DNA from: Alphaproteobacteria bacterium
Lineage (GTDB): Bacteria; Pseudomonadota; Alphaproteobacteria; TMED109
Direction: 5' to 3'
DNA length: 64,000 nucleotides
NCBI GenBank assembly: GCA_030828505.1
Contig: JAURCJ010000004.1
Location: forward strand, 1 to 64,000
Within the stretch, counting starts at the first letter, position 1. Every line of letters starts with the position of its first letter. Shown piece by piece: positions 16,068-46,023 of the stretch. The notes below the pieces were generated by a model. That model saw only the letters and a program-made list of their open reading frames with translations, was not told the origin of the DNA and made no database searches. The position numbers and the translations under genes were made by a program.

Positions 16068-18785
16068 ATGTCAGGCGATAAAAATTTAGAACAACAACCT
16101 TTACCTCTATTATCAAAAGTTACAGGTGAAGCTATACTAAAAACTACCCCTATGTTTCAGCAATTTTTAAAAGTTAAAGCTGAAAATGAGGATTGCCTAC
16201 TTTTTTTTAGAATGGGGGATTTCTATGAATTGTTTTTTGAGGATGCTGTTGTTGCATCTAATGAATTAGATATTGCTCTAACGAGCAGAGGACAATATGA
16301 TGGGAAACCAGTATCTATGTGCGGAGTGCCTTATCACTCTTATATGCCTTATTTAGAAAAGTTAACAAAAAAAAATTATAAGGTTGCAATTTGTGAGCAA
16401 GTTGAGAGCCCGAAAGAAGCGAGGATTAGGGGAGGTTACAAAGCCATAGTTAGAAGAGAGGTTGTAAGAATAGTTACACCTGGAACTTTAACTGAAGAAG
16501 TATTATTAGAAGCAGATAAAAACAATTTCTTACTTTGTATATATTATTTGAAAGAAAATATTGGTCTCTCATGGATAGATATATCAACTGGAGAACTTTA
16601 TTCAGAGAAGTGCTCTAAGCAAAATTACTTAACATCTATCTCTAGGATAAGGCCGAGAGAAATTTTAGCAGTAAATAATAGCTTAATAGATGAAAACAAC
16701 TACATAGAAATACTAAAAAATACTTTTGATTGCGTAGTTACTTCTTTTAACCAAAATATTACTAATAGCAAAAAAGCAGGAGACTTAATATGCCTTCATT
16801 ATGGAGTTAAGTCTTTAGAGTCTTTTGGAAACTTTTCAGAAAATGAAATTTTATCGTGTTGGTCACTTTTAGATTATGTTTCTGTTACACAAAAAGGTAA
16901 TATTCCACCAATAAGGTTTCCCAAATCTATTAAAAATAATTCAACAATGCAGATAGACAATTCTACAAGAAGAAGCTTGGAAATAAATCAAACATTGTCA
17001 GGCAATAAAAAAGGAAGTTTAATTGATTCCATTGATTTTACGCTTACAGCTGTAGGTGCAAGACAGTTGGATAAAGACATATCTGCGCCTTTAACTAATT
17101 TTGAGGAAATAAATGAACGTTTAAATTTAATAGATTTTTTTGTGGCATCTGACACTACTAGATCTGGGATAAGGGCAATTTTAAAATCGGCGGCGGATAT
17201 AGATAGGGCTAAAGCAAGGATAATATTATCACGGGGAGGACCTAGAGATCTTCAGTCTATAAAATTTGGAATAGAGGCGGCTCACAACCTTGCTGGTATA
17301 TTAGAAAATACAAATAAAAATATCCTTCCAAAATTATTAGTTGAAATAATTAATAATTTAAAAAAATGTATGCCGTTATTAAATTTATTAAATGAAACGC
17401 TATCAGACAACCTGCCATTATTTTCTAAAGATGGTGGTTTTATAAAAAAGGGCTATTCTAAAGAATTAGATGCTGTGACATCTTTTAGAGATGAAAGCAG
17501 GCAACATATAATAGAAATGGAATCTCAAGAAAGAAAAAAAACAGGGTTAAATACTCTTAAAATAAAATATAATAATGTTTTGGGGCATTTTTTTGAAATC
17601 ACTCAACTGCAAAAAAAGAAATTTATGGAGATGGAAGATGCAGAGAGGTTTATTCCTAGACAGTCTTTAAAAGGAGTTTCTCGTTTTGTTACCGATGATT
17701 TATCCAAATTGTCAGAGTCTATAAGTAATGCCGCTGAAAAAGCAATAGATATAGAATTGGAAATATTTGAAAAAATAAAAGAATCTATTTCTGACCAGCA
17801 TTTTGATTTAGCAAGCATTTCATATGCTATTTCTAGATTAGATATAGCTTCATCTTTGGCTGAGATCGCAACACTATATAATTTTGTGAGGCCATCTATT
17901 CAAAAAGACCAAACTTTAGAAATAATAGAAGGTCGACATCCTTCTGTAGAATTATCTATGTATAAATCAGGTGCGGATAGATTTTATAGCAATAACTGTA
18001 TGTTAAATAATAAAGATAAAATATGGCTTATTACGGGACCAAATATGGCGGGAAAATCTACTTTTTTAAGACAAAATGCCCTCATTACTATTCTTGCTCA
18101 AGCCGGATCTTTTGTGCCTGCAACAAAAGCATCAATAGGTATAGTAGATTCATTATTCAGTCGTGTTGGTTCTTCAGATGACCTTGCAAGTGGAAGGTCA
18201 ACCTTTATGGTTGAAATGTTAGAAACAGCTGCAATATTAAACCAAGCAAGTAAAAATTCATTAGTTATTATGGATGAAGTAGGAAGAGGGACTTCAACTT
18301 ATGATGGTTTATCATTAGCATGGGCAATTTTGGAACATTTACATAACGTTAGTAATTGCAGAACACTTTTTGCGACGCATTACCATGAATTAACTAATTT
18401 ATCCGATTCTTTGAATGCTTTAACATGTCATACAATGAAAGTGAAAGAATGGAAAAATAAGGTTATTTTTCAATATACAGTTGAAAAAGGAATAGCAAAA
18501 GGTTCTTATGGCATTCATGTTGCTTCTCTAGCTGGTATACCAAATTCTGTATTGATGCGAGCAAAGGTTAAATTAGAACAATATGAAAGCGCATATAAAA
18601 ATTTTAAGGATATAAAAGTTAAAACAAATAAAGAGCCAGAAGATAATATTAGCGAAGACTTTAAAAATATTTTTGATAGTATTATTTCTGATATAAAGTC
18701 TTCAGACTTGGATGAGATTTCTCCAAGAGAAGCTTTAGAAAAGTTATATGCTTATAACAAAAGTATTAAAAAATTAGATAAATAA
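16068..18785 (+). CDS. mutS: DNA mismatch repair protein MutS
   Basis: A 905-residue mismatch-recognition ATPase. The mismatch-wedge motif F-x-E is F52-Y53-E54 (RMGDFYELFF). The ATPase domain has Walker A GPNMAGKST (about residues 657-665), Walker B in SLVIMDEVGRGTSTYDG, and the helix TLFATHYHEL. Length and domain order are complete. No mutL lies in the window. The gene holds an in-frame A9 tract at 16367-16375, relevant to the slippage question raised elsewhere. A TATAAT at 15982-15987 in the 163-bp divergent gap with maeB is a plausible -10 box. Confidence 0.97.
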   Translation: MSGDKNLEQQPLPLLSKVTGEAILKTTPMFQQFLKVKAENEDCLLFFRMGDFYELFFEDAVVASNELDIALTSRGQYDGKPVSMCGVPYHSYMPYLEKLTKKNYKVAICEQVESPKEARIRGGYKAIVRREVVRIVTPGTLTEEVLLEADKNNFLLCIYYLKENIGLSWIDISTGELYSEKCSKQNYLTSISRIRPREILAVNNSLIDENNYIEILKNTFDCVVTSFNQNITNSKKAGDLICLHYGVKSLESFGNFSENEILSCWSLLDYVSVTQKGNIPPIRFPKSIKNNSTMQIDNSTRRSLEINQTLSGNKKGSLIDSIDFTLTAVGARQLDKDISAPLTNFEEINERLNLIDFFVASDTTRSGIRAILKSAADIDRAKARIILSRGGPRDLQSIKFGIEAAHNLAGILENTNKNILPKLLVEIINNLKKCMPLLNLLNETLSDNLPLFSKDGGFIKKGYSKELDAVTSFRDESRQHIIEMESQERKKTGLNTLKIKYNNVLGHFFEITQLQKKKFMEMEDAERFIPRQSLKGVSRFVTDDLSKLSESISNAAEKAIDIELEIFEKIKESISDQHFDLASISYAISRLDIASSLAEIATLYNFVRPSIQKDQTLEIIEGRHPSVELSMYKSGADRFYSNNCMLNNKDKIWLITGPNMAGKSTFLRQNALITILAQAGSFVPATKASIGIVDSLFSRVGSSDDLASGRSTFMVEMLETAAILNQASKNSLVIMDEVGRGTSTYDGLSLAWAILEHLHNVSNCRTLFATHYHELTNLSDSLNALTCHTMKVKEWKNKVIFQYTVEKGIAKGSYGIHVASLAGIPNSVLMRAKVKLEQYESAYKNFKDIKVKTNKEPEDNISEDFKNIFDSIISDIKSSDLDEISPREALEKLYAYNKSIKKLDK

Positions 18786-26911: not shown

Positions 26912-27874
26912 TTATTTTTTAACCCAATATAATGAGCCATGCCATAGCAATCGATTATTAGCATCTTTAGACACGCAATTAATTCTTGCTTTTTTACCAA
27001 GAAATTTTTTAGTTCTAACTTCAATTCTATTATTGCTAATTAGTAATACCTCTGCCTTATCTTTATTATTAGTGTAGCATAGTGGAATTTGTTTTTCATT
27101 TTCTAAGGTAAACCCATATAGAGGTGGATTATGTGTAATGCTATTACCATAAGGAAGAATATTAGTAACTTCTAAGGGCAAAGTTTCTAAAACTGTTTCG
27201 AGTCTTTTTGTTTCTGAAAATTTACCAGATATATTAAATCTGGGAAGCCTATATTTATGCATAGTATTACTAATAGGCCCTGAATTGTCGGTAAATGCAA
27301 TTTCCATATTATAATTATTTAGTATTTTAAGTTCCCTTTCAGACCAGATGCCTTGCCTATAAATATAGTAAATTGGCTTAATATTTAAATTTTTTATAAA
27401 AATATCTATATCATTTACTATATTTTTAGGTGAGCTCCTAATTCCAATATCGACGCCATTATTTTTTAAAATTATAATGTCATTCCAAGACATATAATTA
27501 TTATTTGTATTTATTACTCGTGGATCAATAAATAAAGTAAATGGTAAAGAATCACTAGAAAGAAGTGGCCAGATATCTTCTATTACTTGTTTATTATTAC
27601 TTGAAACAGTTATGCCTACTGAATAGTCAGGTAGGTTTTTTGAATTATCTAGTAAATAAATAATTTCATTTATTGGCGTAACAAAGTATTTTGCTTTAGT
27701 TAATATTTTTATATGTTTTTTTATGGTGTATAAATCGAAATCTGTTTTATTGAAATTGTCATAAGATATTACAACAATATTTGCGAAGCTCGCTTTAATA
27801 TATATACTATTGATAAAAAAAAATATAATAAATATAGTTATCTTTAATATTAAATTAAACATGGTCACATGCAT
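26912..27874 (-). CDS. Degenerate polysaccharide-deacetylase-like (NodB-fold) protein
   Basis: A 320-residue protein with an N-terminal membrane anchor or signal (about residues 8-30). The order of segments follows alphaproteobacterial NodB-fold proteins: FDLYTIKKHIKIL, YFVTPINEIIYLL, YSVGITVSSNNKQ, PFTLFIDPRVI, MSWNDIIILKNNGVDIGIRS. The metal-binding residues are not there. The DD dyad is replaced by SS after GIT, and the His-x3-His region reads IGIRSSP. It may be a pseudoenzyme or a cell-wall-binding protein. It overlaps the ddpX-like gene by 20 bp, or by less if Met5 is the start. Family assignment rests on pattern similarity. Confidence 0.6.
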   Translation of the reverse strand: MHVTMFNLILKITIFIIFFFINSIYIKASFANIVVISYDNFNKTDFDLYTIKKHIKILTKAKYFVTPINEIIYLLDNSKNLPDYSVGITVSSNNKQVIEDIWPLLSSDSLPFTLFIDPRVINTNNNYMSWNDIIILKNNGVDIGIRSSPKNIVNDIDIFIKNLNIKPIYYIYRQGIWSERELKILNNYNMEIAFTDNSGPISNTMHKYRLPRFNISGKFSETKRLETVLETLPLEVTNILPYGNSITHNPPLYGFTLENEKQIPLCYTNNKDKAEVLLISNNRIEVRTKKFLGKKARINCVSKDANNRLLWHGSLYWVKK

Positions 27875-28423
27875 TTTTCATTATATTTACAGCATCTTCA
27901 GGCTTAGATATTAATGGCCAATTTTTACTATTATGAAGCTGATAATGCCACCATTCTTTTTCATAGTAATCCCAACCGGAAGCGGTCATGATGCCGAGTA
28001 ATATTAATCTATTTTTTTGAGCTGTTTTAGAAATATCTGTATTTCCATGATACGACTCTTTATATAAATAATCAAAATTAGTACCCATATTTAGTTCTTT
28101 ATTATTTTTGATCAATGTTAGGTCTATTGCAATGCCTCTGGAGTGAGGTGAACCAATACATGGAGGAGTTATGAAATTTTTGTCCGGACAGAAATCCCAT
28201 AAAATATTTTGTGCATCTACAGGACGGAATGCGTCGTAAATTTTTAACTGGAAACCTAAGTTTTTAGCAATAGTTATTGCTGATAGTAACTTAGGTAAGG
28301 CGTCTTGGTGAAGAAAACATTTATTCTGTAAATAAATTTTTTGTCCTGTAAAATTTGTATTTTTGTAATACTCCAAATCTATACATACATTATATTTTTT
28401 TTTGTAATTTCAATTAAACTCAT
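27855..28423 (-). CDS. ddpX: D-Ala-D-Ala dipeptidase (VanX/DdpX family), frame broken at an A9 tract
   Basis: A zinc dipeptidase of the VanX/DdpX family, expected to cleave D-Ala-D-Ala. Motifs are intact: DAFRPVDAQ, the zinc ligands in SPHSRGIAIDLTL (His and Asp) and the catalytic Glu and His of EWWHYQL. The conserved N-terminus is in another frame. From ATG 28423 it reads MSLIEITKK, then breaks at A9 (28395-28403, minus strand). One extra A joins it to YNVCIDLEYYKNTNFTG, matching the family and giving 189 residues. Without it, only a TTG start at 28376 is available, which lacks the first strand. Slippage, decay or sequencing error are all possible. Confidence 0.75.
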
Positions 28424-28516
28424 AATTTACCTTTTAAAATACCTTAAAAAGAATAAAAAGATATAGTATTAATATATAGGCCTTAGTTTGTTAAGTAAAT
28501 AAGTGAGGAAGTATAG

Positions 28517-38523: not shown

Positions 38524-39203
38524 ATGAGTAAAACGCTGCATGGAAGAAGAATAGGTAGAAAATTAGGTAAAAAAAAACTTTATTCATAAATAATATACTA
38601 CCTAGTAATGAGTTTAAATATGAAGATACAGCTAACTTATCCGAATTATTTGATAATAGTATACATGAAATATGGCTAGAAATAGGGTTTGGTTCTGGAG
38701 AACATATAAAATGGCAGTTAGAGAAAAATAAGCACATAGCAATAATAGGTTGCGAACCATATATTAATGGCATAGCTAATTTATTAGGTTTGCTCTCTGA
38801 AGAAGAATTAAAAAGAGTTAAAGTATTTAATGGAGATGGTAGAAAAATTATTAGTGCTTTAAAAAATAATAGTATTGCAAAAATATTTATTCTATTTCCA
38901 GACCCATGGCCTAAAAAGAAACATTATAAGAGACGGTTTATACAATTTGATATTTTAGAGAATTTATATAGAGTTTTGATAAATAATGGTGAATTGAGAA
39001 TTTCCACAGATCATTATAGTTATTTATCTTGGATATTATTTCATTTTTTAAAATTCAAAAAATTTTATTGGTCGGCTAAAAATAAATCAGATTTCTTAAA
39101 TAAGCCTGAAAATTGGACTAAAACAAAATATGAATTAAGAGCAGATAGATTAGGTAATAGTTGCTATTATCTTCAATACTTTAAACGCAATAAGAATAAT
39201 TGA
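38524..39203 (+). CDS. trmB: tRNA (guanine-N7)-methyltransferase TrmB, frame broken at an A9 tract
   Basis: TrmB makes m7G46 in tRNA. The reading frame starts at ATG 38524 with the family-like MSKTLHGRRIGRKLGKKK, then hits a stop at 38587 because of an A9 tract (38569-38577). One extra A leads into LFINNILPS and on to the SAM-binding WLEIGFGSGEH, the NGDGRKII segment and the hallmark FPDPWPKKKHYKRR, ending at 39203. The restored protein has 226 residues, the normal length. The only intact frame without correction, from 38790, lacks the SAM-binding site. The same defect occurs in ddpX. Slippage or a base-calling error could explain it. Confidence 0.82.
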
Positions 39204-45753: not shown

Positions 45754-46023
45754 ATGTCGATAACAACAGAGAAAAAAAAAGAAGTAATAGAAAAATTTGC
45801 TTTAGAAAAAGGAGATACAGGTTCTCCCCAAGTACAAATAGCAATATTAACGGAACGAATTAATAATTTAACAGGACATTTTAAGGACCATAAAAAAGAT
45901 GTACACTCCAGAAGGGGTTTATTAAAAATGGTAAATAGAAGACGTCGTTTATTAGATTATTTAAAAGAAAAACAAGAAGAATCATATAAGAAAATAATTA
46001 AAGATTTGGGCTTACGTAAATAA
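45754..46023 (+). CDS. rpsO: 30S ribosomal protein S15
   Basis: An 89-residue primary-binding 30S protein that contacts helices 20-22 of 16S rRNA. The sequence [51 protein letters not shown] is close to universal for S15. Its codons 7-9 form an in-frame A9 tract (45772-45780), so any polymerase slippage at A9 would produce defective S15 message. The leader between truB and rpsO is too short (14 bp) to hold a pseudoknot operator of the E. coli kind. Confidence 0.98.

Follow-up and report, generated by a model that had tools for sequence, protein, structure and literature searches.

The ddpX gene of a TMED109 alphaproteobacterium is interrupted at a run of nine adenines (A9) by a one-base frameshift that is private to this genome, and we put at about one half the probability that it is a real, leaky -1 allele. 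About 10 kb away, in the same 64,000-nucleotide stretch of DNA that was analysed (hereafter the window), the housekeeping tRNA-modification gene trmB is split at another A9 run; the same break occurs in every close relative examined, so trmB is probably read by slippage. A preliminary description of the window had presented these as two independent genes that share one type of lesion, which is right in form only: the trmB break is common to relatives, whereas the ddpX break is private. The link between the two genes is useful, yet the cases differ in age and in the strength of the evidence, and of the two it is trmB, with its conserved site, that holds more interest, ddpX being a modest instance of a known phenomenon.

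The genome that contains the window (G000) comprises 1.44 Mb in 24 contigs, with a G+C content of 31% in the window, and belongs to the same genus as genomes G001, G002, G003, G005 and G006. Passages of one source (PMC8879329) ascribe a low G+C content to metagenome-assembled genomes of TMED109, and present MarineAlpha9 as a marine taxon whose genome is streamlined.

The frameshifted ddpX gene and its homologues

On the minus strand, the ATG at 28423-28421 opens a zero-frame ORF (28379-28423; MSLIEITKKNIMYV) that begins MSLIEITKK, passes through the A9 run (28403-28395; T9 on the plus strand), which occupies ddpX codons 7-10, and ends after 14 codons at a premature TAG stop (28381-28379). A Shine-Dalgarno-like AAGG lies 5' of this ATG (28430-28433, minus strand); among congeners, AAGG is also found in G001, G003 and G005, AAGGG in G002 and AAGA in G006. 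The remainder of ddpX (27855-28376, minus strand; 173 amino acids counted from a TTG codon) is one base out of frame; the YNVCIDLEYYKNTNFTG frame extends to 27855 with no further break. This frame encodes DdpX of the DdpX/VanX family (peptidase M15, PF01427), with matches to Pfam Peptidase_M15 (E=5.3e-34) and to the NCBIfam model for D-alanyl-D-alanine dipeptidase (NF007557, 216.7 bits; cut-off 176). The sequences SPHSRGIAID and EWWHYQ are present, as are both of the motifs SxHxxGxAxD and ExWWH, which we take to be the zinc and catalytic motifs of DdpX/VanX. The preliminary description had read the short ORF and its stop in this way and had proposed that one more A would continue into the start of a VanX/DdpX protein; both points were borne out, one extra A being enough to put the gene back into the conserved reading frame.

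The homologous ATG opens a single uninterrupted ORF of 176-189 amino acids in all 17 relatives compared (16 genomes of the same family and one of another family), against 14 amino acids in G000, where the gene lacks one nucleotide. None of these relatives thus shares the lesion, which is private to G000. The sister species G006 reads ATT ACA GAA AAA AAA TAC at this position; the G000 sequence is a base shorter there, and its A9 is unbroken. In G006 the counterpart of the A9 run is A-G-A8, a run broken by G, and not A10; the A9 of the window may therefore have arisen through the lesion itself and not by the shortening of an A10. Judging from these two sequences, either a single deletion or a substitution followed by the loss of one A would yield the G000 state from a G006-like sequence. 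The ddpX gene of G003 contains an N in the run, which makes its exact sequence there unreadable. In G010 and G020, in-frame A9 runs are found near the ddpX start, at or near the position that is broken in the window, which indicates that this region tends to be A-rich.

A 320-amino-acid ORF without a Pfam or NCBIfam match (26912-27874, minus strand) shares 20 nt with the end of ddpX, and downstream frames of 318 codons adjoin ddpX in G001 and G005; the two genes of the window are likely to form one operon. This ORF contains a T9 (A9) run of its own at 27815-27823. Without rescue, the product of ddpX would be 14 residues long, and the overlapping ORF could suffer from lost coupling.

The split trmB gene of two genera

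The zero-frame ORF of trmB (38524-38589, plus strand; MSKTLHGRRIGRKLGKKKLYS, then a stop) runs through an A9 run at 38569-38577, and the rest of the gene lies in the shifted frame at 38580-39203 (plus strand; TIGR00091, 112.7 bits, just above the cut-off of 112.65). All seven trmB-bearing genomes of two genera (g1 and g2) have the gene split, at A9 in five (G000, G001, G003, G005 and G006) and at A10 in two (G002 and G007), with the same frame offset, so that the same one-base step is needed each time. The sequence TTAGGT followed by at least nine A's is invariant at all seven splits, and the short zero-frame product has 19-21 residues. With regard to a Shine-Dalgarno-like element that might stimulate -1 frameshifting, GGAAG is found 5' of the run in six of the seven genomes and GGTAG in G000. 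No trmB match was found in G004, a genome that is 61% complete. Another 15 genomes of the family bear trmB, and in the six of these that were read (G008, G009, G010, G011, G024 and G029) the gene is continuous at the site; an order-level search for trmB gave the same 28 genomes as the family-level search.

The gene and its run are both retained. Between G000 and G006, trmB has dN 0.123 and dS 0.653 (dN/dS about 0.19). The trmB run is at least nine long in six of six relatives, versus 23 of 64 orthologue pairs in which in-frame runs of eight or more A's on contig C1 are still at least eight long (a set from which shadow frames were not fully removed). The seven split genes probably share one ancestral event, and retention is what counts. 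From sequence comparison, trmB looks like a candidate for conserved recoding under purifying selection, whether the shift comes from slippage in transcription or from a -1 step of the ribosome. The trmB of G002 has a second frame break, at an A7 run in WPKK(K) (L063, near 1831-1837), which is either a further slippery site or a mistake in the G002 sequence.

Homopolymer runs and alternative explanations

The genome-wide scan that had been proposed for A9/T9 tracts was carried out. The assembly contains 168 exact A9/T9 runs (88 + 80; located again as 82 + 86). A composition-based codon score had poor power, so runs were classified by open-frame lengths instead: a run was in frame if an open frame of at least 60 codons on either strand passed through it and no out-of-frame pair was better by more than 25 codons. 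By this classifier, which could overlook a break close to the start of a gene where a long antisense frame overlaps it and may count runs in small genes as non-coding, 142 runs are in frame, 19 are outside genes and seven are flagged. On reading by eye, five of the flagged runs (C9:42255, C9:70412, C13:16921, C15:55069 and C23:28247) are gene boundaries and not splits; the remaining two are ddpX and trmB, so that 142 of the 144 runs placed inside genes keep the frame. The number of flags is itself no signal, as 62 of 2,501 A5/T5 runs were flagged by the same classifier versus 7 of 168 A9/T9 runs. That two splits exceed coincidence, as had been claimed, agrees with the finding that only ddpX and trmB, among all 168 runs, split a gene.

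Contig C1 (119.7 kb), on which ddpX lies, has 72 A/T runs of eight, 13 of nine and three of ten, a spectrum that resembles those of nine relatives, with a somewhat steeper fall from eight to nine in G000. Together with the A9 census, this spectrum excludes the general homopolymer error that had been offered as an explanation, and systematic truncation of runs was rejected. Among runs of eight or more A's on C1 and in the nine relatives, 20 were flagged, of which seven are trmB (six) and ddpX (one); eight others proved to be gene boundaries or small in-frame genes when the sequence was inspected, and five (G000 24152 and 83375, G001 12595, G005 3239 and 32882) were judged from the numbers only to be gene ends. 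Of 99 ORFs of C1 with a same-clade homologue, a count that includes antisense shadow frames, 16 exceeded the length-difference limits; 15 of these were read, from their coordinates, as shadow frames, as starts placed upstream or as weak comparisons that stand alone, and the remaining one, ddpX, lacks 16 residues in six of six comparisons. A tblastn search of relatives' frames against C1 for split matches, which is blind to a break as near the start as that in ddpX, gave one pair, antisense to frames of the window, which was set aside.

These results bear on four other accounts of ddpX. The rather unlikely one that a one-base deletion has made a fresh pseudogene, with negligible rescue, is a serious rival, compatible with a private lesion and with parsimony, under which one deletion could separate G000 from G006; the gene may also be dispensable, as 11 of 28 family genomes, many of them incomplete, have no ddpX match. 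Yet ddpX shows neither a second lesion nor an excess of amino-acid changes (nine on the G000 branch, eight on the G006 branch and eight ambiguous; dN 0.082 and dS 0.727 between the two), and passages on other systems describe bypass at runs of this type (PMC3812077, PMC1088944). The low dN/dS could simply reflect a very recent lesion. An isolated consensus or assembly error at the run, leaving the organism's ddpX intact, is unlikely but likewise a serious rival: the species is represented by a single genome, errors concentrate in homopolymers, and ddpX otherwise looks functional. Against such an error stand the in-frame A9 runs, to which the only other exception is the conserved trmB; the 12 runs longer than nine in the sequence examined, of which eight are in open frames, four are outside genes and none is flagged; the similarity of the run-length spectrum to those of relatives; and the absence of a comparable loss in other C1 genes with same-clade homologues, after antisense frames and starts at upstream TTG codons had been discounted by eye.

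Phase variation, in which replication slippage at A9 would toggle ddpX on and off in the population, had also been put forward, and A9 is a plausible length for such slippage. It is nevertheless very improbable: the 168 A9/T9 runs of the assembly include no set of several loci that are OFF in one genome, ddpX being the sole private split; mutS is present as a full-length ORF (16068-18785); and ddpX presumably encodes no surface structure, judging from its family. It is just as doubtful that TTG 28376 is the true start and that nothing is broken, a reading for which there is an ORF from this codon, with the upstream stop ending two bases before it, so that a restart is conceivable. The preliminary description had allowed that homologues might start at this downstream TTG, but in all 17 the gene begins at the upstream ATG; G006 has this TTG, a leucine codon, as well, and no Shine-Dalgarno-like stretch is visible before it in the window. 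Such a start would also remove residues 1-16, which a model of the G006-type protein predicts to be well ordered (mean pLDDT 88.3; 94 and 96 for residues 1-10 and 11-20); this model aligns with VanX (PDB 1r44) from its first residue (Z 22.9, rmsd 2.2, 168 residues aligned, model 1-172 on chain 3-195). In favour of a leaky frameshift in ddpX we counted the retention in the window of the ribosome-binding region and the ATG, the lack of any other break and the low dN/dS, and we counted the conserved trmB split 10 kb away as a clade-wide precedent. The ddpX lesion is not conserved, so evolution gives no hint that slippage at this site is of use or that it suffices.

Candidate slippage and comparison with known systems

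A recent -1 frameshift at ddpX codons 7-10, private to the lineage, would have left or created the A9 run, which may itself be slippery; the run is uninterrupted and of the length, about nine or more, looked for in a slippage-rescued gene. RNA polymerase adding one A, or a ribosome slipping back one base on A AAA AAA, would lead into the full-length frame and give T-K-K-K-Y-N-V, the same length as the T-E-K-K-Y-N-V of the relatives. A minority of full-length DdpX would thus still be made, and the allele would be leaky rather than null. As a heptamer of the form X XXY YYZ, A AAA AAA stands in the zero frame at both ddpX and trmB, so an extra A and a -1 step both enter the protein frame at either site. 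Downstream RNA structure at the trmB and ddpX sites of the window does not exceed that of shuffled sequences (z -0.12 and -0.62), which mildly favours transcriptional slippage. The slippage that had been suggested for both genes is strongly supported for trmB by seven of seven genomes in two genera; for ddpX we infer it, together with its amount and the machine that slips, as plausible. Comparison of genomes shows reading by an obligatory shift for trmB only, which the clade would keep readable solely in that way. A broader, tentative proposal is that slippage at A9 or A10 has become obligatory for TrmB in a group of streamlined marine alphaproteobacteria (TMED109/MarineAlpha9), and that this tolerance has lately taken in ddpX in the present species, which would show an early stage of dependence on recoding beside an established one. 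In-frame A9 runs are also found in rpsO (45772-45780, plus strand, near the start) and mutS (16367-16375, plus strand); if A9 slippage is efficient in this clade, both should pay a cost.

The passages available describe reliance on poly(A) slippage in insect endosymbionts, in insertion sequences and in a small number of secretion genes (PMC5009743, PMC1088944, PMC4256274). In a large share of bacterial genomes, selection against A/T runs that are prone to slippage is said to become evident at a length of nine, and slippage would restore some of the genes that are disrupted (PMC1088944); laboratory bypass is described even at A8 (PMC3812077). Corrected transcripts are put at 12-50% in insect endosymbionts, in a source that also names A_AAA_AAG as a shifty site (PMC5009743). 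Searches of open-licence PMC text found no paper on a ddpX frameshift, and among the matches listed there was no title on a trmB frameshift and no relevant title on poly-A transcriptional slippage in marine or streamlined bacteria. If the present reading is true, a trmB that is out of frame in at least seven marine species would extend slippage dependence to streamlined ocean lineages; annotation of metagenome-assembled genomes may list genes of this type as fragments or pseudogenes, and the private ddpX case would show how dependence on recoding can begin. The trmB site deserves its own study.

In tssM1 of Citrobacter rodentium, according to the passages on it, an A run likewise precedes a premature stop and added A's give about 20-25% full-length protein; that run is an A11 late in the gene and both products are needed, whereas the A9 runs described here are near the start and the short products have only 14 (ddpX) or 19-21 (trmB) residues (PMC4256274). 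The nine-A sites surveyed by Baranov et al. 2005 are alike in that slippage restores an interrupted ORF, but they belong to another lineage, and neither trmB nor ddpX appears in the passages of that survey (PMC1088944). The family and fold of the encoded enzyme are those of VanX (PDB 1r44); the ddpX of the window differs in being chromosomal, in a marine bacterium, beside an unclassified ORF. Bacterial -1 ribosomal frameshifting on A AAA AAG is of the dnaX type, which both sites resemble in having A AAA AAA in the zero frame and a product restored by a -1 step, and from which they differ in having no downstream structure stronger than that of shuffles. Tamas et al. 2008 reportedly described poly(A)-frameshifted genes of Buchnera and Blochmannia that are rescued by transcriptional slippage (cited through PMC5009743). 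There, as here, a small AT-rich genome has a frameshift in a long A run of a gene that is otherwise intact, and the passages concerned name cell-wall genes, comparable to ddpX, among those affected. Those bacteria are insect endosymbionts with measured transcripts, whereas the present genome is marine and known from DNA alone; unlike the endosymbiont cases, the trmB break is conserved across two genera.
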